Assembly (NCBI GenBank): GCA_009602725.1
Contig: WELB01000015.1
Location: 712,802-747,315, forward strand
Direction of reading: 5' to 3'
Origin: Spirogloea muscicola
Lineage: Eukaryota; Streptophyta; Zygnematophyceae; Spirogloeales; Spirogloeaceae
Length of the DNA stretch: 34,514 bases
Shown here one piece after another: positions 14,105-34,514 of the stretch. A program made the translations under genes and the position numbers. Below the pieces are notes generated by a model. That model was not told the origin of the DNA. It searched no databases and saw nothing but the letters and a program-made list of their open reading frames with translations. Each line of letters starts with the position of its first letter. Positions within the stretch are counted from its first letter, which is position 1.

Positions 14105-15131
14105 TCACTTGAAGAGCTTGTACTTCTTGAGGAGCGGCGCGACATCCGACTTGCGATACGGCTTGGTGGCGAGGCACGTCGGGATGCTCTCGGGCTTCTC
14201 CAGCCACAGCTTGTGGGCGATGCCCTCAGAGTCCAGCCTGCTGGCAAGGTCAACGAGCTGCGCCTCGCCCGGAACCTCCAGAGTGACCTGTGGCAGAGCG
14301 AGGCGACGTCAGCCTCAGCCCTGCTCTCAACAAGAGCATGTCAGCGCCAGCCGCTGTCAGGGAAGAAAGAGACTTCCATTAGAGGGCGATGGCTGTGATT
14401 GGCCAGCCCACAAAAAGAATAAACGAAAACTCGAAGAACTGAGGGTTTGAGGTTTTGTATTAAGGGGGTTTGGGCTTTAGGTGCCAGATAAGCACTTAAG
14501 CATGCAGCGAATCAAGTGGCCTGATAAGAGGCCTGATGGCGGTATTTAGGTTTTACTGTTAAACCCCAAACCCTGAATCCTAAACCCTGACCGTGTGCAT
14601 GTCGTTGATGGCGGCAGGCCCACAGTAGGCCTTGGTGGCGGCGTCGCCGCGGTGCTGCCAGACGGCAGCGACGGCGGCGTGGCAGCCTTGGGCCACGACG
14701 CTGCCCAGCGGCCAGCCCAGGCCGCCGGGCGCCACCAGGTCGCGCCGCAGCAGGACGTACTGCACAATTGGGTCCTGCGAACACAAGAGCCATGCACATT
14801 TGTTAGATATGATTCACTGCTAGATACGGTCTCCAATTTGGCTCAGATTAACGCACAACTTGCAGAGACGGGAGTCGAGTAAGGGAATGACAGCAATCAA
14901 GGTTTAGGAATAGCATATATGCCGGCAAAACGCACGCAAGATTTTGACGGGCCTTGAACCATTAGAGTTGAACCCGAGACCCTTCATCCTAGAATCTAAA
15001 CTCTTAAACTAAGTGCTGCCGGAGGGCTGTCGGAGGCCGGAGAGGCAGAGCCGCCGGCTCGGCCTGCGCCGCCAGCCCCGCCGGCGAGCGCGCCTCACCT
15101 GCGGGTCGGCGGCGTCGGCGGCGTCGGCGGC
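14105..15131 (-). CDS. PTRHD1: PTRHD1-like peptidyl-tRNA hydrolase-fold protein (5' end in assembly gap)
   Basis: Three exons are visible in transcript order: >15131-15099, 14774-14592 and 14287-14105 (TGA), all joined at phase 0, with about 132 visible residues. Exon 2 reads DPIVQYVLLRRDL...GWPLGSVVAQGCHAAV and exon 3 ends KPYRKSDVAPLLKKYKLFK. These match the Pth2-fold PTRHD1 family along almost its full ~140-residue length, including the LWLEKPE segment. The family resembles peptidyl-tRNA hydrolase 2, but its in vivo activity is poorly defined. The N-terminus is an Ala-Ala-Asp repeat running into the N gap, so the start codon cannot be seen. The gene is divergent from the leucyl-tRNA synthetase gene across the gap. 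Intron 2 carries both a dispersed repeat and telomere-like sequence. Confidence 0.9.
14371..14425 (+). repeat. Copy of dispersed GGCCAGCCC short repeat in PTRHD1 intron
   Basis: GGGCGATGGCTGTGATTGGC followed by CAGCCCACAAAAAGAAT. The same block recurs in variant form in the repeat island at 27826-27935, and inverted at 31045-31080 and 31845-31870. It lies in the intron 14591-14288, so this family is also inserted inside a gene. Confidence 0.65.
14440..14590. repeat. Telomere-like motifs in PTRHD1 intron 2
   Basis: Two clusters occur: GGGTTTGAGGTTTTG...GGGTTTGGGCTTTAGG at 14440-14480, and AAACCCCAAACCCTGAATCC then TAAACCCTGA at 14560-14590. The second abuts the intron donor, so on the transcript the intron starts GTCAGGGTTTAGG. 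The two clusters point in opposite directions. Confidence 0.6.
14955..15010. repeat. Weak telomere-like motifs in PTRHD1 intron 1
   Basis: GAACCCGAGACCC, TCCTAGAATCTAAACTCTTA and related words look like strongly decayed CCCTAAA units. The intron is 15098-14775. This is the least certain of the telomere-like sites. Confidence 0.3.
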
Positions 15132-15801
15132 NNNNNNNNNNNNNNNNNNNNNNNNNNNNNNNNNNNNNNNNNNNNNNNNNNNNNNNNNNNNNNNNNNNNN
15201 NNNNNNNNNNNNNNNNNNNNNNNNNNNNNNNNNNNNNNNNNNNNNNNNNNNNNNNNNNNNNNNNNNNNNNNNNNNNNNNNNNNNNNNNNNNNNNNNNNNN
15301 NNNNNNNNNNNNNNNNNNNNNNNNNNNNNNNNNNNNNNNNNNNNNNNNNNNNNNNNNNNNNNNNNNNNNNNNNNNNNNNNNNNNNNNNNNNNNNNNNNNN
15401 NNNNNNNNNNNNNNNNNNNNNNNNNNNNNNNNNNNNNNNNNNNNNNNNNNNNNNNNNNNNNNNNNNNNNNNNNNNNNNNNNNNNNNNNNNNNNNNNNNNN
15501 NNNNNNNNNNNNNNNNNNNNNNNNNNNNNNNNNNNNNNNNNNNNNNNNNNNNNNNNNNNNNNNNNNNNNNNNNNNNNNNNNNNNNNNNNNNNNNNNNNNN
15601 NNNNNNNNNNNNNNNNNNNNNNNNNNNNNNNNNNNNNNNNNNNNNNNNNNNNNNNNNNNNNNNNNNNNNNNNNNNNNNNNNNNNNNNNNNNNNNNNNNNN
15701 NNNNNNNNNNNNNNNNNNNNNNNNNNNNNNNNNNNNNNNNNNNNNNNNNNNNNNNNNNNNNNNNNNNNNNNNNNNNNNNNNNNNNNNNNNNNNNNNNNNN
15801 N
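15132..15801. other. Assembly gap (670 N)
   Basis: A run of N. It hides exon 1 starts and the shared divergent promoter of the PTRHD1-like (minus) and leucyl-tRNA synthetase (plus) genes. The left flank ends in a (GGCGTC)n-like repeat, which probably broke the assembly. Open frames that appear to cross the gap are artefacts. Confidence 0.99.
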
Positions 15802-18800
15802 CGCTGGGCCGCCGCGCGCGCCTTCGACGCCGCGCCCGGCGCCGCCGCCGGCGCCGGCGGCAAGTTCTTCGCCAACTTCCCGTACCCGTACATGAACGGC
15901 CGCCTGCACCTCGGCCACGCCTTCACCTTCTCCAAGGTCTGCGCCTGCCCGGCCGCCGGCCGCCATGGCCGCCGCTGTCGAGTTCGACAGTGAAGGTCAC
16001 AGGTTCGAATCCTGGAGAGTGCATTAAATCGAAGAGCCGCCGCTGGCCCAGCTTGGTATCAGTCATCCACGCGGCGGCCTCTCAAGCTCAGATTGGAGTA
16101 ATGGAAGTGTGTTACGATTATCAGAAACAAGTAAGATTAGTATAGTTTACAGGTATATGTAGGTAGATATGTAGACATATGTAGGTAATCTCAGGCCTCT
16201 GGGGCTTAGGCTAGGTCCACGACCTCCACTGCGCTTCTGCCACTGGTCGCCTCTTGCAGAGCCACCGGCCTCCTTGCCTTATCCGGCTTGCTATTGCGGC
16301 GGCGCCAGCTAGACAGCCAGCCTCCTTCTGCACCATCCTGGCTTGCCACGTCCCTTTGACACATTTTATGTCATCCTGAGCTAGCGGGATGCCAACCTAG
16401 TCACGGTAGTGACGTGCGCTGAAGCCAGGCCAGGAGGCGCTGCCATTGTGGCACCCTTTGGCCGCAGGTCCTTGACCATCTCCTCACTTGTTGTCTCCTT
16501 CTTGCGCTCCAGGTGGAGTTTGCAGCGGCGTACCATCGCCTTCGGGGCGCCCGCGTCCTGTGGCCGTTTGGCTTCCATTGCACCGGCATGCCCATCAAGG
16601 TATTTAAGCTAAACCACTCGCTGCAGCCTAAAAATCCGCCCACCGTTTCTGCAAGGACACCAAGTTTCCCCTCTAACTCCTGATTGAATAATCACTGGTG
16701 CTATGATCAGGAACTACGGGTTACAGTTAAGGGTTAAGGGGTTAGGGAGTCAGGGTTTAGGCCTAGGGTTCAATCCCCAGTCGTTCTGTGCAAGGCGCGC
16801 TTGATCAACGTGTTCTTTGTTGATCTTCTGAGATCCACACGGTTTTGTTGTCAGACTCGGGACTTACAATTAGGTGCATTTCACCAACTGAAAGCCTGTC
16901 TGATGAGGCCTGCCTACATTGCACATCCTGCATCAAAGTACATCTAAGGAAACCTTGAATTCTGCCTTCAGAGGGATCCTGAATGATTCAGGCAAAGCAT
17001 AAGCTTCTGATTGCTGGCTTAGAAGAAGTCCAGGCAATGTGCAGAGGGCCCGTGCTTTGGCGAGGCCCTCAGCTGCCAGGGTTCCATTAAGCCCTTAACT
17101 GTCAGTTTAGCCCTTAACTGTCACTGCACCATGGCGTGCGTAGGCGTGTGCGGACAAGCTGGAGCGAGAGTGCCAGATGTTCGGCTGCCCTCCGAACTTT
17201 GCCGAGGCAGAGGTCGAGCCTGAGCCCGTCGGGCCGCCTGCTGCCAGCGAGCCCACGCCAGCGGAGGACAGTGATCCCACCCGGTTCAAGGCCAAGAAGG
17301 TATTCACTTTAGGTGCACATATAGTGGCCAATTAGATTCGATTATGGTGTGTTCTTGCAGAGACATTGTCTCACCTTGTATGCAAGTCATTGACCTTAGG
17401 TACTGCGGGCTAACATTCTCAGCAAATACTGTGGATGCGCGTGCAGTCTAAAGCTGTGGCCAAGACTGGTCATGCTAAGTACCAGGTGATATATCTTCGC
17501 CCAAGCTGAACCTCCCCGGAACACTTGTGAGCGTGCTCTAGTATATAGCACATGGCAGCCTTCAGACAAACCTTATGAAGCAGCATCTCTGCCTTGTCCT
17601 CTGCAGTGGGAGATAATGAAGTCTCTCGGCTTGGATGACGAGGAGATTGCCAAATTTAGGGACCCGACCCACTGGCTGAAGTATTTTCCCCTCGTTGCTG
17701 TGGTGAGTATAAGCAAGGTCAAGGCACTGCTGGACTCCTGTCTAGAGTGACTCCTATGCGTGCCACCTTTCTGCAGATCAATTGTTGAGCTCCAGCTAAT
17801 AATATAGAAGTTGAAGCTCGTATTGGTTGTTTTGTCCTGATTCCCAGGATGACCTTAAAGTGCTGGGTCTCGGGGTGGACTGGCGGCGGTCCTTCATCAC
17901 GACCGATTACAACCCCTATTATGATTCATTCGTCCGGTGGCAGTTCAACGTTCTCAAGGAGAAAGGCAAGGTGTTGTTTGAAAATGCAACACATATCTGC
18001 CATCTGGCAGTTTACTTAGGAACAATGTCTTCTTGGGGTTCGTCAAGCAAGTGTTGGTTTTATTGCAGATGCTACTGTGGACTGTTTGCATGTAGTAAGA
18101 ACCATCTGACATCTCATTTGCTGACCAGTGCATTTAGCCAACAAAATTGTCACCCACAGCTATACAAAGAGTCACAGACTGCCCAGATGATTCCAGATAA
18201 GAGAACTGATGCTTGAAATAGTGGCCAGGTCGTCAAGGACCGCCGTTACACGATATACTCCCCTCTCGATGGTCAGGTTAGTCCAGATGCGTCCTTGTGG
18301 AAATATCATAGATCCTATTGGAGTTGATGGCTTTCCACAATTGTAGCATGCACGACTTCTGTGCTACTAGCAGGGAGGTCTGCGAAGACTCAAGCATCAA
18401 GCTGTCTATGCAATGCACCGCTAGTTGACTTATGACGAGTCGATGATGATGATGATGGGTGTCAATGGCAGCCCTGCGCCGACCACGACAGGGCGTCCGG
18501 CGAGGGGGTGCTACCGCAGGAGTACACGCTCATCAAGATGGAGGTCTTGCCACCACTCAAAGGTAATGTATATTAGAATAGTAGACTCCAGACCAGCGAC
18601 TAAAAGAGATTCATTGGAGTCAGACTGGCAAGCTCAGATGCCACACTCCTCAAGCCCTACGGCATAGATTTGAGTTCCTCTTGCTTGTCAAGTGCTAAGG
18701 CCACCGGAAGTCCGTCTATTGTTGACGTGCGAGTGTCAACAACATGCAGGCTTAAGGTTGTATTTGGTCTTGGCTCAGGATCTGCTCCTTGACTTCTAAT

Positions 18801-21800: not shown

Positions 21801-24800
21801 GGTATCACAAGCAATATATTGGTGTAGACTAAGGATGGCTTGTGACATCATGCGACACACTATTGCAAGTCTTGTTGCCTTGTCAGTAAGCAGGGTCAAT
21901 ACAAGCTTAAGGAGACTCTGAGGTTGCTTATATACAATTCCACAGGAAAAGTGGCCCAGGGGCTTTCGGTGTAATGGACACCTACTGCTCAACTCTGAGA
22001 AGATGTCCAAGCAAACAGGCAACTTCAAGACCGTGCGGGATGCTGTTGGTGAGCCTTAGTAGTAGCCTAGGACAGATGTTTCAGAACACTGAACAGAACA
22101 TCGCATCAACGAAGCAGCAATGACTAGCGTAGCTGCTCCTATGGAAGTTGTTCACGGACTAGTGAAACCTGCCAGTGACCATTGCAGAGGTGTAAATTTT
22201 GACGACTCTTGCTGTGAGGATTGTTTGTGGTCTGTTGCAGCCCTGCTCTGCCCTGTACGTGTAGTTGTCCTGATAAAGAAAGTCATCAGAATGATATCAG
22301 GAAATGGCCAGATAAGTTTGAATTCTGCATGCCAAGGAGTATTTCAGCATAGCTTGTGTTACAGAAAGCTAGCTGGTGATCTGATTGAAGCCCATGTGAA
22401 TTATGTGTGTCCTTTGTTTTTGTCTGGTTAGCACAGACGAATACTCTGCCGATGCAACTCGGTTTGCTCTAGCTGATGCTGGGGACACTGTGGATGATGC
22501 CAACTTTGTGGCGACGACCGCTGATACAGCCATACTCCGTCTTACCAAGTACGTCATTGCTGGCCCCTCCCAATCAGTTTCTCATTTGCAAGAGCAATGT
22601 TCTTTGTCTCAGAGTAGATTACTAAAATATAAATATAATCATTATGTTGACATCGAGCTTACATAAGAGTATGTGACCATGAGGAAAGGGTTTATTGGCT
22701 GTTGATGAGCAACTGACATATGCATCAGGCTTTTGTGCTGAATGTTGTCATGTTGAATACTGTGTTTCTAGGAATGTTAAGTCAGTTGGTGCTTCTGTGA
22801 TGTAGAGAGCTGGCGTGGATGGAAGAAGTGATTGCGGCAGACTCCAGCCTAAGGGGCGATGAGACAAAACTCACTTTTGCAGACAGGGTCTTCCAGAACG
22901 AGATAGAAGTTGCCATCAGTCGGACAGAGACAAATTACAAGAACATGATGTTCAGGGAAGCCCTAAAGACAGGCTTCTATGACTTCCAGGTAACCCATTT
23001 GCACATGTTTTGAGTGGCATATTGTGGACAGATATGCAGCTTGTCTTTGAGCCGTTCCGGATATTGGGGCTAAGTCAACCCAATTTCTTTCAACCATTTC
23101 ATTTAGTCTTAGTCATTCAATTGTTTGCTGTTTGTTTGATTGAGGACTGAAGCTTGCAAGAGATGAGTATCGTTTTTCCTGCGGAGCTTCTGGGATGAGG
23201 CGAAGTCTTGTTCGCCGTTTTATGGAGGTGCAGACACGGCTAATAACTCCTGTAAGTTCAGTACCTACGTCTCAGCATGTTGACAAATTACTGCATGTAT
23301 ATCTGAGGATGAGGCCTGCAAGCTGTGGTTGATCAAATGCATTGTCCTTGTTGCACAAAGCAAGCCATGTGGCAGACTGCCTTCCAAGCTCTGCAATGCT
23401 TGCTCACTCCTCCATTGCTTGGAGAAGCACTGAGGCACATAGGCCAACTCTGCAAGCAGAGGCTTTAGGACAACACATATTTCCAATCAAGCAGTTTCTA
23501 TGGGCATGTTTCTTGTGATATCTCATCAACATTTTGCTTGACAGCTTCGCCTAGCATCTGTTGTCCAGATCTGCCCGCATTACGCCGAGCATGCATGGAC
23601 AGAAGTCTTGGGGAAGGATGGACTAGCAATCACTGCTGGCTGGCCTTCCAGCAGTCCGCCAGACTACACTCTTCAAAGCGCCAACAAGTACCTTCAGGTG
23701 CACCGATGCAATTTAGAATTCACCATGGCTTGGAGCTCCTTATTATCTTACGTAAAATTGATGCTGGACCTTGCAGCAGTATACACAGTGGACGATTTTG
23801 ATGCAGGAAATCTGTCTGCCACTCTTGCTAGTTGCGCCGTATCTCAATTACACTCGTCTTCATGCATTTCAGGACACGATAACTGATTTCAGGAAATTGA
23901 TGAGCAAGCAAGCAGCCTCTAAAGAGGCCAAAAAGCCCTCTGCAGCGGCACCTGCGACTGCACAAGCAGATCAGTGCCTGGTCTTTGTGGCAGAGACATA
24001 TGGGGGCTGGCAGGTAGCGCCACCTGCAATCTGACCCAACATACAAGAAGCGTTTGTCAGCTCATTGAAAGCATGATCAAGCACAAAGCTTGAGGGGTTT
24101 GCAACTTCTGCTGCTGTGCTCTGCGTTGTGCATGACTCATTGAGGCAAAATCGCAACATTTGCTGAGTTGGTAAGCTTGTGACGTGGTATCAACGTGGTC
24201 ATTGATGATTGAAGGAGGAGTGCTTGAAGCTGCTACAGACTCACTATGACAAAGAAAGAAAGACTTTCCCAGACGATGCAAAGCTCATTTCTGCTCTCAA
24301 ATCCAGCCCTATTGCAAAGGTAGCAACTATGGCAGTTGAATGTTGCTTGCACAGCTAGCTCAGAGTACGAAGAGACTATCTTAGACTATCTTGTCTCCTC
24401 CACAATCCTGTTGGCATCATCTGGCTCGGTACACGTCTGATAATTTTGCAGCATCTAATCTCCTCATATCACTGGGTCTAAGATCTGTAGCACATGCTGA
24501 TATTATTTAGGAGTCTCAACATACTTATTGTGTGGTGTGGCATATCTACATTGCCTTGTGCTACTGTGTTATGAGATTATCCCTTCTAGCTAATCTCTAT
24601 CATAGCATCTTGCTTGAAGATGGGAGACTTCAAGAAGATCATGGGCCAGTGTATGGGCTTCCTCAAATTCAAGAAGGACGCCGCTCTTTTGACTGGCCCA
24701 CAGGTATCACCAAATCTTCAAAAAAAATGCGGGGGTATGAGTGTCCTAAGATGTACACAGAGGAGAAAAAGCTGATGCAGATTTCAGAATCTTACCAGAA

Positions 24801-26725
24801 GTATGAGATTGCATGCATTCCCGTCCGGCGGGACATGGGAAGACTTGTGTGGAGTTTTCAAAGATGACCTCTGTTTTCTTAGGCTTTCAATATTTCATTG
24901 TAGCTGGGCACCTTGCTAAGAGACTTCCTTCATGGACATTCAGGCTCTTGAGCTACGGCTTCCCTTTGACGAGGCTGCTGTGTTGCTGGACAATGCCGAC
25001 CTCATCAAGGTACACCCAGCCACAGCAGCTGCATTGGGCTGGCACCTCTTGCTTGCAAGAGACATGCTAACATTCACTCAACAGCAGGCAGTACATTTGA
25101 CCTGTACAGTGGTCAACTGCACTCGCCTTGTTAAAGTAGGAGAAATGAACCTGAAGATTGTCATAGTGGGGCTATTGCTGAGTGCAGAGGCAGCTCGGCC
25201 TTGAGAAGCTGGAGCTGCTCTCCACCACCGATGAGGCAGCGGTCAAAAGGGCAGGGGCTCAGGGATCGCGGATTCTGACGGCAGTACCTGGCAGCCCTGT
25301 AGCTGTATTTTTGTCGCCTCAGCAGGCTGAGAGGGTCAAAGCAAAGGTGAAGAGAAAGGCCAAGATGGGCTGCCATTTGCATTGCCTTTTGTCAGAAACG
25401 CAGCTTCCATCATGCATTGCTGCAGTATGCTTTCCAATGTAGATCTCACATGTGACATGATTAGGCGACCTGACCTGTGACACACCGTTGGCCAGGTGTA
25501 CCTGCGGCCGAAGTCGTCCAGCGAGTCGGCAGTGAGGCAATGCCTAGCCATGCTGGGGTCTGACATTGAGGTCCACGACTTGACTGGTGCCCCGTCAGAG
25601 CCAGTGGTAGCAGCTGCCTGTGAGGCTCCAAGCATTGAACCACTGCAGAAGGCCTCTAAGTCCTCGAGCAGGTGGCTGTCATGTAGCCATCGGGCACGCA
25701 TAGCTGTAGTCCTCTTGACAAGTCTGACCTTCTGCTAGCTTAGGACCAGAGTCACTATGAAGGTTGTGGGAATTGGGTCTTCAAAGCAGGCTACTCTTCT
25801 CCTTGTTGCTGCATACTTTGCTGCCTTCTGATGATGCTTGCTCAAATTGGAACAACAGCTTTCTCATTAGGGGTCTTGTATACCTTTGTCGGACCCTTGA
25901 TGGACAGCTTTCAGCCTGGGCCTGTTGTACCTGTGCTGAGCTTGCTGCAGCTTCTGGAGCAGCTGCCGTGCTCCAGGGGGATGGCCTGCTAGTGGCCGGC
26001 ACCGCCAGCATCCTGCGCTACTTGGGCAATGCTGCACCCATGGGGTCGTCAATATATTCTCGTGACCCTGCAGGTGACAGTCTATTATGATCATCCCCTG
26101 TTGTTTCTCGGTGGTCCTTACTAATTCCCTCTGCTTTGTGGCTGCTGTGCATTCTGCCTCAGGAGGGGGGTTTTGGTGGTGGCATTTGCGGGGGTTACAT
26201 TGCATTCATTCAATTGTCCACACAATTGTAGACAACAGAAGAAATATAGCTACAGGAGATATACATTTCATCTTGGACTTCACAACGTGAGCATCTTGTT
26301 TGGATGGCTGCTGCAGTACGAGCAGAGACTGACGAGATCCTGGACTGGATCACAAGCAACCTCCAGCCATCCATCTCGAACGGCGACCCTAACGCAGCGC
26401 TGAGTGCTCTCGAGCACTGGCTTCCTTCCTGTAAGCGCTTCTGCTTTGCCGCCTACCGTGTACTAAAATGTGATATATGGTGCCTTCTGTTCACATAGTG
26501 CTTCTCAATATTGTTAGTCTAGGCAGCATGTTATGGCACTAGTAAGTGGGATACACTTTGAGAGATTTGGTTGGGTGAACAGGGAGGGCCCGGAAGTCAA
26601 GAAGCATCGCGGACGTGCTGCTGGCAGCTGTTTTGAGGGATATTCAGAACGACCTTGCAAATGGCCCCTATGTTAGGACGAGGACTTGGCTCCAAGATTT
26701 TGGTCCTGCCCTTACATCTGTTTAA
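15802..26725 (+). CDS. LARS: Cytosolic leucyl-tRNA synthetase with C-terminal GST-like domain (5' partial)
   Basis: Thirty-two exons join in phase: <15802-15936, 16513-16599, 17144-17299, 17447-17485, 17607-17702, 17848-17970, 18229-18276, 18472-18562, 18902-19095, 19222-19351, 19504-19581, 19797-19975, 20278-20355, 20530-20633, 20760-20880, 21057-21179, 21415-21540, 21685-21801, 21946-22048, 22437-22548, 22806-22989, 23153-23251, 23545-23697, 23873-24013, 24215-24319, 24620-24703, 24944-25009, 25188-25346, 25496-25671, 25871-26073, 26317-26430, 26583-26725 (TAA); 1,288 visible residues. It charges tRNA-Leu: class I HIGH site is HLGH (15907-15918), KMSKS site is KMSKQ (22000-22014). The CP1 editing domain keeps [12 protein letters not shown] and [16 protein letters not shown], so proofreading looks intact. 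LeuRS similarity ends near FLSPQ in exon 28; about 212 extra codons follow. They resemble synthetase-type GST domains: [37 protein letters not shown]. The fusion rests on phase and the absence of a start codon, not on transcripts. Confidence 0.9.
16718..16770 (+). repeat. Telomere-like TTAGGG/TTTAGGG repeat in LARS intron 2
   Basis: GGGTTACAGTTAAGGGTTAA, GGGGTTAGGG and CAGGGTTTAGGCCTAGGGTT form a degenerate array inside the intron 16600-17143. Unlike several of the other sites, it is more than 100 bases from the donor. Confidence 0.6.
25496..26725 (+). other. GST-like C-terminal extension of LeuRS
   Basis: The last four exons encode about 211 residues absent from ordinary LeuRS. The first ~60 ([16 protein letters not shown]...) may form the start of a thioredoxin-like half. 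The next exon contains [19 protein letters not shown], very like the SILRYLAR segment of the GluProRS GST domain. The last two exons give the all-helical half, with the S-x-x-D N-cap motif ([13 protein letters not shown]) of GST-C folds. No glutathione-binding residues are recognisable, so a docking role in a synthetase complex is inferred. A separate gene is the alternative, but no in-frame ATG precedes VYLRP. Confidence 0.7.
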
Positions 26726-32693: not shown

Positions 32694-34514
32694 ATGAAGC
32701 CATTCCATGGTGGCGCTCGCCGCGCCAGGCTGGCGTTGCAGCTGCTGCTCTGCCTCGCAGCTCTCTGCGTTCCTGTGGACGGCCTGGTGAATGCTGCACA
32801 CGCTTGTGACTGCTGCTGCAAGGATGACGCCGGCTGGAAAGTTGCTCTGGACACGTACCCAGTTGAAACACCAGTTATCTCTAGCATTCTTAAGCTCAGT
32901 CCACCAGTTGCAGCTGTGCCATCAGTTAGTTGATGATTTAGGGTCTTACTTATGTCCCCGTGCCTGTGACTGACCAGCTCTGCAGCTTACTCGGTGTCAC
33001 GGACTTACTTGTGGCCATCGGCCTGCTCAGCGCGCCATCAGTCTTGCAAAGCATCAGCCCCACAGCCACGGCCCTCTGTCGAGTGGACGGGACGGTGTCG
33101 GACCTTCAATGCTTGTGCAGCGATACGCTCGGTGGTGACATAACGCAGGTATGCTACCGTCAGCTTTATACTGTCAGTCTGCTTCTACTCTTCTTACGTA
33201 CACAGCTACTTGCAGGCGATGACCTGGCAACTTGCATCGACTGTGCCTGAACCAAGATCTTGGAGCTGTTCAATCTGATCAGCCTGAGCTGCCAGGTGAC
33301 GCAAGTTGTTGGAAAACAAATGCAGACACCAGGCGTGGTAATATTTGATGACTAGAATTGGTGCATGTCTTTGTCAGCTGTCTGCTGAGCTTGCAGCGCG
33401 AGATGTCAACCTTATACTAGGCCTCAACAAGTGCAACTTTGCAGTCTACTACGAAGATGTATCTGGGAATTGCTTCCTGTTCACAGGTGGGGCACCGCAG
33501 AAGACTTAACATGCTGATATACGTGCTACGGTGATAGCAGTCCACTCATCTATAATCACCCAGGCTTGCGCAACTCAGTAGCACATTCTCGTGGTGCAGA
33601 TTCTGCAAGCATGACTCCTCTTTCAGCCTGCTTGGCTTGCCACAATGGTGACTTCTGATGGCACGTCAGTCATTTTCCATGCCGCACTTGTGGTTCCTTG
33701 ATGCTGATGCTGATGAGAAGCCATTGCTGTTTGTCCGGGACTCAGCGTTTGCCCCATTCCCACCACCACCGCCGCCGCCCCCACCGCCACCGCGGCCACC
33801 ACCCCCGCGATCTCCGCCACCGTTGCCTCCACCTCCGCCTCCTCCCCAGCCACCTCCGTCACCTCCACTGCCGCCGCCACCACCTCGACCTCCACCACCA
33901 TCGCCTCCATCTCCACCTCCTCCGCCGCCATCGCCTCCGCTGCCGCCGCCGCCGCCTGGGCCTCCGCCACCACTGTCACCACCTCCACCTCCTCCGCCGC
34001 CACCTCTGTCGCCGCCGCCGCCGCCGCCGCCGCCGCCTGCGCCTCCGCCACCATTGCCACCAGCTCCGCCTCCTCCGCCGCCACCTCCATCGCCTCCGCT
34101 GCCGCCGCCGCCGCCTGGGCCTCCGCCACCACTGTCACCACCTCCACCTCCTCCGCCGCCACCTCTGTCGCCGCCGCCGCCGCCGCCGCCGCCGCCTGCG
34201 CCTCCGCCACCATTGCCACCAGCTCCGCCTCCTCCGCCGCCACCTCCATCGCCTCCGCTGCCGCCGCCGCCGCCTGGGCCTCCGCCACCACTGTCACCAC
34301 CTCCACCTCCTCCGCCGCCACCTCTGTCGCCGCCGCCGCCGCCGCCGCCGCCGCCTGCGCCTCCGCCACCATTGCCACCAGCTCCGCCTCCTCCGCCGCC
34401 ACCTCCATCGCCTCCGCTGCCGCCGCCGCCGCCTGGGCCTCCGCCACCACTGTCAACACCTCCACCTCCTCCGCCGCCACCTCCGTCGCCGCCGCCGCCG
34501 CCGCCGCCGCCGCC
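32694..34514 (+). CDS. Secreted Cys-rich, Pro-rich (hydroxyproline-rich glycoprotein-like) protein, 3' partial, frame interrupted
   Basis: The ATG at 32694 starts a clear signal peptide: basic n-region (GGARRAR), hydrophobic core (LALQLLLCLAALCV), then PVDG. Exon 1 may end at 32786 (GTGAAT donor) or run on through CDCCCKDD. Later exons that fit splice consensus and phase are 32978-33148, 33206-33295, 33378-33486 and 33746 to the window end. They give a globular part with about eight Cys (ALCRVDGTVSDLQCLCSD, NKCNFAVYYEDVSGNCFLFT) followed by AFAPF and a long PPPSPPLPPPPPG-type tract. This architecture suits an algal wall or matrix hydroxyproline-rich glycoprotein, pherophorin-like in the rod only; the globular part is not a pherophorin domain I recognise. 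A TGA at 33248-33250 interrupts exon 3 between CIDCA and TKILELFNLI. It may be an error, a pseudogene lesion, or a misplaced intron. Confidence 0.6.
33931..34514 (+). repeat. 159-bp (53-codon) tandem repeat in the Pro-rich rod
   Basis: The word TCGCCTCCGCTGCCGCCGCC starts at 33931, 34090, 34249 and 34408, exactly 159 bases apart, with almost no change between units. The period is a whole number of codons, so copy-number change keeps frame. The array runs off the window end. Confidence 0.95.

Follow-up and report, generated by a model that had tools for sequence, protein, structure and literature searches.

A leucyl-tRNA synthetase whose C-terminus probably continues, once spliced, into a shortened GST-like domain in a photosynthetic eukaryote

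In eukaryotic multi-synthetase complexes, glutathione transferase (GST)-like domains serve as the standard connectors. As carriers of a GST domain, AARS Online tabulates CysRS, GluRS-E, MetRS and ValRS (PMC11580382). For Arabidopsis, the excerpts of a paper used here list a GST domain on GluRS and give those of human CysRS, MetRS and ValRS as absent (PMC7564348). For leucyl-tRNA synthetase (LeuRS), excerpts of a review on complexes in evolution describe a C-terminal appended domain that is needed for complex assembly, with no mention in them of a GST-like one (PMC4394549). Human LeuRS has 1176 residues, of which the last 106 (residues 1071-1176) constitute UNE-L (PMC7229842), and the cited excerpts describe this domain as dispensable for catalysis and required for entry into the synthetase complex through IleRS (PMC7229842; PMC9643514). 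We found no description of a LeuRS-GST combination in the open-licence literature as far as its text could be searched, and algal LeuRS records with such a tail may exist. The initial annotation of the DNA analyzed here, which proposed a LeuRS with an in-frame C-terminal GST-like tail and held that no established LeuRS is known to carry one, is in keeping with the survey table and the literature excerpts (PMC11580382, PMC7564348, PMC4394549).

The window, i.e. the whole stretch of 34,514 nucleotides that was analyzed, corresponds to C15:712802-747315 in a 153-Mb genome of 471 contigs. At least 39 matches to chlorophyll a/b-binding domains are listed for this genome (best E 4e-33), and these light-harvesting genes identify the host as a photosynthetic eukaryote, which bears out the algal lineage assumed at the outset to that extent. 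Upstream of the LeuRS gene the window has a run of N, either a gap or a withheld stretch, at about 15100-15900, and its end, from 33650 to 34514, is of low complexity, proline-rich on the plus strand and glycine- or alanine-rich on the minus strand. A genome search retrieved two further copies of the tail region, C144:381650-383176 (91% identical) and C280:144456-145971 (86%). The LeuRS locus therefore exists as three diverged copies, the two extra ones making a comparative test of the tail possible. Other genes also occur three times, namely GluRS (C17, C22, C9), a second set that is probably GlnRS (C33, C38, C147), eEF1B-gamma (C27, C28, C76) and one MetRS set (C29, C135, C189), which suggests that the genome is allotriploid or that three related lineages were assembled together. 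Tail paralogs elsewhere in the genome were not seen among the 14 matches listed, 12 of which correspond to the LeuRS tail exons themselves, four in each of the three copies; the remaining two reach E values of only 4.4 and 5.4.

The gene upstream of the tail (Table 1) encodes a cytosolic-type LeuRS, as judged by homology to the eukaryotic cytoplasmic enzymes. Its C-terminal half matches the cytoplasmic leucine--tRNA ligase 9w01 with an E value of 3.4e-51, four distinct LeuRS sequences being matched, and the LeuRS identity given to the exons before intron 1 is thereby upheld. The class I signature at 22000-22014 reads KMSKQ in all three copies, differing from KMSKS in the last residue. The initial annotation had placed the normal LeuRS end at 25346; the core before this point is sound, but 25346 may not be the normal end, because the alignment with 9w01 (1176 residues, as long as the human enzyme) passes it and stops at residue 1103, inside the first tail exon.

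Table 1. Features of the LeuRS gene and its predicted tail, in window coordinates
Feature	Position	Strand	Basis or remarks
LeuRS C-terminal-half exons	22807-25009	+	alignment with cytoplasmic leucine--tRNA ligase
LeuRS core exons	22807-22989, 23545-23697, 23873-24013, 24215-24319, 24620-24703, 24944-25009	+	alignment
LeuRS core exon, approximate end	near 23153-23254	+	alignment
Last LeuRS core exon (A)	25188-25346	+	alignment with cytoplasmic LeuRS
Intron 1 (phase-0 GT-AG, core/tail)	25347-25495	+	splice sites; 7.4-17.7% divergence between copies
Tail exon B	25496-25619	+	predicted beta-alpha-beta; GST N-terminus and UNE-L fit it about as well as each other
Intron 2	25620-25914 (or to 25950)	+	frame-breaking indels in C144 and C280; 9.9-18.8% divergence
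Tail exon C	25915-26073 (alternative start 25951, possible alternative end 26079)	+	GST-like strand-strand-helix and helical-domain start
Tail exon D	26317-26430	+	first helix or helices of GST-like C-domain
Tail exon E	26583-26725	+	SIAD ([ST]xxD) motif; stop TAA 26723-26725

The exon model of the tail was obtained by aligning the three copies and listing the splice-site combinations that are kept in all of them with an open frame, of which there were 216. The 12 with the highest identity agree on exon B (25496-25619) and exon E (26583-26725); exon D starts at 26317 or 26323 and ends at 26430, and in exon C the start is at 25951, 25960 or 25963 and the end at 26073 or 26079. An exon C start at 25915 lies outside the best 15 of the 216 combinations but is in the same phase; C144 does not differ at this place, and C280 has an in-frame 9-base deletion there. 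Exon C begins either at 25951 or, possibly, at 25915, with 25960 and 25963 also scoring well, and two tail models were used, of 179 residues (from 25915) and 167 residues (from 25951). Neither has the 211 residues originally predicted. That prediction implies a donor at 25672, which does not belong to the set of GT sites shared by the three copies and is shortly preceded in C144 by a 1-base deletion. The most likely end of the first tail exon is 25619, where the donor GT at 25620 is kept in all three. Similarly, the exon C start at 25871 that the 211-residue prediction implies is contradicted by frame-breaking indels between 25871 and 25914, a 4-base insertion in C144 and a 2-base deletion in C280. 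The three peptides quoted in the initial annotation are nevertheless all found in one spliced frame ending at the TAA at 26723-26725. Such a frame, open from the LeuRS core into a tail of about 165-180 residues, is present in each of the three copies.

Comparison of the copies indicates that the tail codes for protein in the LeuRS frame and is subject to purifying selection like that on the core. For the three copy pairs, the dN/dS values of the tail were 0.08, 0.09 and 0.12 (the longer exon C gives 0.08, 0.12 and 0.14), and those of the LeuRS C-terminal core were 0.14, 0.14 and 0.12 over 297 codons, a count that omits the exon near 23153-23254, the end of which is imprecise. In the introns 5-23% of the aligned sites differ between copies, and in the stretch 3' of the stop codon 18-24%. 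Values for single exons, which are rough because they depend on few changes, were 0.23, 0.04 and 0.04 for exon B, 0.19, 0.19 and 0.22 for exon C, 0, 0.07 and 0.04 for exon D, and 0.04, 0.09 and 0.25 for exon E.

The junction between core and tail might also be read as the boundary of two genes, with LeuRS ending inside intron 1 and a separate GST-like gene starting downstream. Reading on from the core does meet a stop at 25440-25442 in the window copy and C144, and an in-frame ATG lies in the intron 5' of exon B in C144 and C280. However, the window copy has an in-frame TGA at 25478-25480 that closes the frame 5' of exon B, and no ATG follows it before an internal one at 25550, which agrees with the claim that the exon after the intron lacks a start codon. 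In C280, moreover, intron 1 is open and in frame throughout, so that the core reads into exon B with no stop at all. The intron itself, proposed as a phase-0 GT-AG intron at 25347-25495 and recovered as such, has canonical phase-0 sites and diverges as introns do (up to 17.7%), and the conservation of exon B sets in with its first codons. Two separate genes are thus quite unlikely. One spliced protein is favored by the dN/dS of the tail, the closed frame of the window copy and the open intron of C280, and we infer the fusion of the tail to LeuRS from this three-copy comparison. The intron of C280 is opened by a 2-base deletion, and its retention would insert ~ 50 residues between core and tail and no stop.

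The nearest relatives of the tail among the sequences searched are ordinary GSTs. A phmmer search of the Protein Data Bank returned 13 sequences at E values up to 10; GSTs take the first five places, led by 4iel (E 2.4e-4), and the others comprise two GST-type and six STAT1 entries. With a profile of the three copies, 10 of 11 matches were GST-type and one was a lectin. The matches listed for the single sequence and for the three-copy profile include no GST-like domain from a synthetase, from an AIMP or from eEF1B, and most of the Protein Data Bank alignments span only tail residues of about 55-116. Among plasmids, tblastn gave 48 records at E values up to 10. The best match (H31, E 1e-3) sits in a GST frame, and six of the best 40 of the 48 are annotated as GSTs; another 25 of these 40, at E values of 3-10, are on Escherichia or Shigella plasmids, nine of them annotated as IS3-family elements, and look like chance. 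Of the eight plasmid loci inspected, seven have a GST frame (interrupted in L016) and L019 has none. No relatives of the tail were confirmed among 66 pattern matches in viral contigs or 31 in prokaryote genome contigs.

A profile was then built from six GSTs (L012, L013, L014, L017, L018 and L009), leaving out the near-duplicates L015 and L010, L016, L019, and L011, an eEF1B-gamma in several exons. This profile matched tail residues 4-103 with a probability of 97.2%, in one colinear alignment through exons B and C and into D; five of its six members had been picked from the tail's own matches, a choice that favors the exon C-D region. The whole tail scored 40.6 bits against it, a value reached by none of 1000 shuffles (best 7.7), and exons C-E scored 38.8 bits (best shuffle of 1000, 8.0). 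For exons D-E the score fell to 8.0 bits (best of 1000 shuffles 7.1), for exon B alone to 0.8 bits, reached by five of 1000 shuffles, and for exon E alone to 0.0 bits, reached by 78. In a global alignment the SIAD of exon E is placed opposite TLAD or SLAD of the GSTs, exon E alone being no better than shuffles. As far as these sequence comparisons go, the GST assignment is firm in exon C and where exon D begins, fair in exon B and weak in exon E taken by itself. The tail is homologous to the thioredoxin-like N-domain of GSTs and the start of their helical C-domain, and the proposed GST-like C-terminal tail on LeuRS accordingly stands on the database matches and the GST profile.

The domain search suggested for the 211-residue tail was run with Pfam and matched no family, as did the same search with the corrected tail; for exon B alone, Radical_SAM_C (E 0.11) was the single match and lay below threshold. 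In NCBIfam, all three copies matched weak GST-fold models only (FzlA, best E 0.01; PRK15113, best E 0.015). When exon C was folded by itself, the model had a single helix of low confidence and no strands (mean pLDDT 64, pTM 0.31).

Because the alignment with cytoplasmic LeuRS extends past the core into exon B, this exon, and perhaps the whole tail, could descend from UNE-L and not from a captured GST, the likeness of exons C-D being then a second acquisition or convergence. The score of exon B against the UNE-L piece was reached by 10 of 2000 shuffles, and those against four GST N-termini by 29, 196, 234 and 1921 of 2000. The UNE-L alignment covers only the first piece, to residue 1103, and is about as good as the GST fit. 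On the other side, the GST profile aligns in one colinear run with exons B and C and part of D, five of 1000 shuffles match what exon B alone scores against it, and a Protein Data Bank search with exon B alone yields neither LeuRS nor GST at E values up to 10 (together with the preceding residues it finds RuvA fragments only, E 0.2). We consider a UNE-L origin unlikely, and a GST-like tail is kept as the preferred reading.

An active glutathione transferase fused to LeuRS, for example linking redox state to translation, is a very improbable interpretation of this GST-like tail. In its favor are the ordinary GSTs that are its nearest relatives among those searched and a serine-rich segment in the beta1-alpha1 region of exon B. 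However, in the alignment with the six-GST profile, the Pro that precedes the third strand of GSTs is Ala and their Trp-Glu-Ser is Ala-Gly-Thr in all three copies. The replaced Pro and Glu/Asp-Ser positions are what we take to be the glutathione site of the family, so the features expected of a catalytic GST (the cis-Pro and the Glu/Asp-Ser) are absent from every copy. The C-domain is also about 35 residues shorter than in GSTs, with a candidate [ST]xxD motif kept. The tail thus probably no longer binds glutathione and is expected to have no enzyme activity, the replaced residues making it more probably a binding module.

Docking would be the likeliest role for such a module, a proposal made mainly because the tail takes the place that UNE-L has in human LeuRS. 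In yeast or human, GluRS or MetRS engages in GST-GST contact. In this genome, however, such contact is not supported by the GluRS copies and the MetRS copy read. In each of its three copies, GluRS appears to start with a Met immediately ahead of the catalytic domain, and no GST-like N-domain was found in the 5-kb stretches holding these gene starts; the DNA 5' of the start is poorly conserved, rich in GC repeats and variable from copy to copy, C17 having a long insert that does not align. The best tblastn match at a GluRS start (C22, E 0.012 in the 5-kb stretch) proved to be another frame of a GluRS exon and contains a stop. Derivation of the tail from the genome's own GluRS N-domain was rejected, as no such domain was found in the three stretches. 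Likewise, the N-terminal exon of the one MetRS copy read, on C213, shows no GST-like N-domain, a far-upstream exon being possible, and an EMAPII-type domain lies about 3 kb downstream on the same strand. eEF1B-gamma does carry GST-like exons in three copies, and it and a second LeuRS (homodimerization) are equally possible candidate partners.

Taken together, our preferred reading, to which we give a probability of about 0.7, is that splicing would extend the C-terminus of this cytosolic-type LeuRS into a GST-like domain, shortened and probably non-catalytic, that serves as a docking module. Having lost glutathione binding, the tail would act in protein-protein contact, at the position of the UNE-L that joins human LeuRS to the multi-synthetase complex through IleRS, and its partner would be a second LeuRS, eEF1B-gamma or another scaffold. 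A more far-reaching version, which is tentative and on balance doubtful, is that a green-lineage LeuRS independently captured a plain GST at the site of animal UNE-L and became the GST-bearing hub of a rewired assembly with other synthetases or eEF1B. If so, the captured GST would not be one already used on another synthetase or scaffold, and, with no GST-like N-domain seen on GluRS and MetRS in this lineage, LeuRS would be the hub of an independently rewired assembly. A LeuRS with a C-terminal GST-like domain would mean, when set beside human UNE-L, that LeuRS acquired a connector on two occasions by different means, and the tail would offer a direct handle on synthetase complexes in algae.

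Compared with known systems, the tail has something in common with each of three. Bacterial GSTs resemble it at 40.7-44.4% identity over 54-58 residues in five of the better plasmid matches (H29-H32, H34), but they are free-standing, keep the Pro and Glu-Ser, and have a longer C-domain. Human UNE-L is likewise placed after the LeuRS C-terminal domain and its first part is weakly similar to exon B; unlike the tail, it has no counterpart of the GST-like exons C-E, the alignment stopping at residue 1103. The GST-like domains of synthetases share with the tail an expected non-catalytic, protein-binding character. Those listed for CysRS, GluRS-E, MetRS and ValRS are, like it, appended to class I synthetases (PMC11580382, GST row), but where the review excerpts describe the domains of MetRS, GluRS/GluProRS and ValRS as N-terminal (PMC4394549), the one predicted here would be borne by LeuRS, at its C-terminus.
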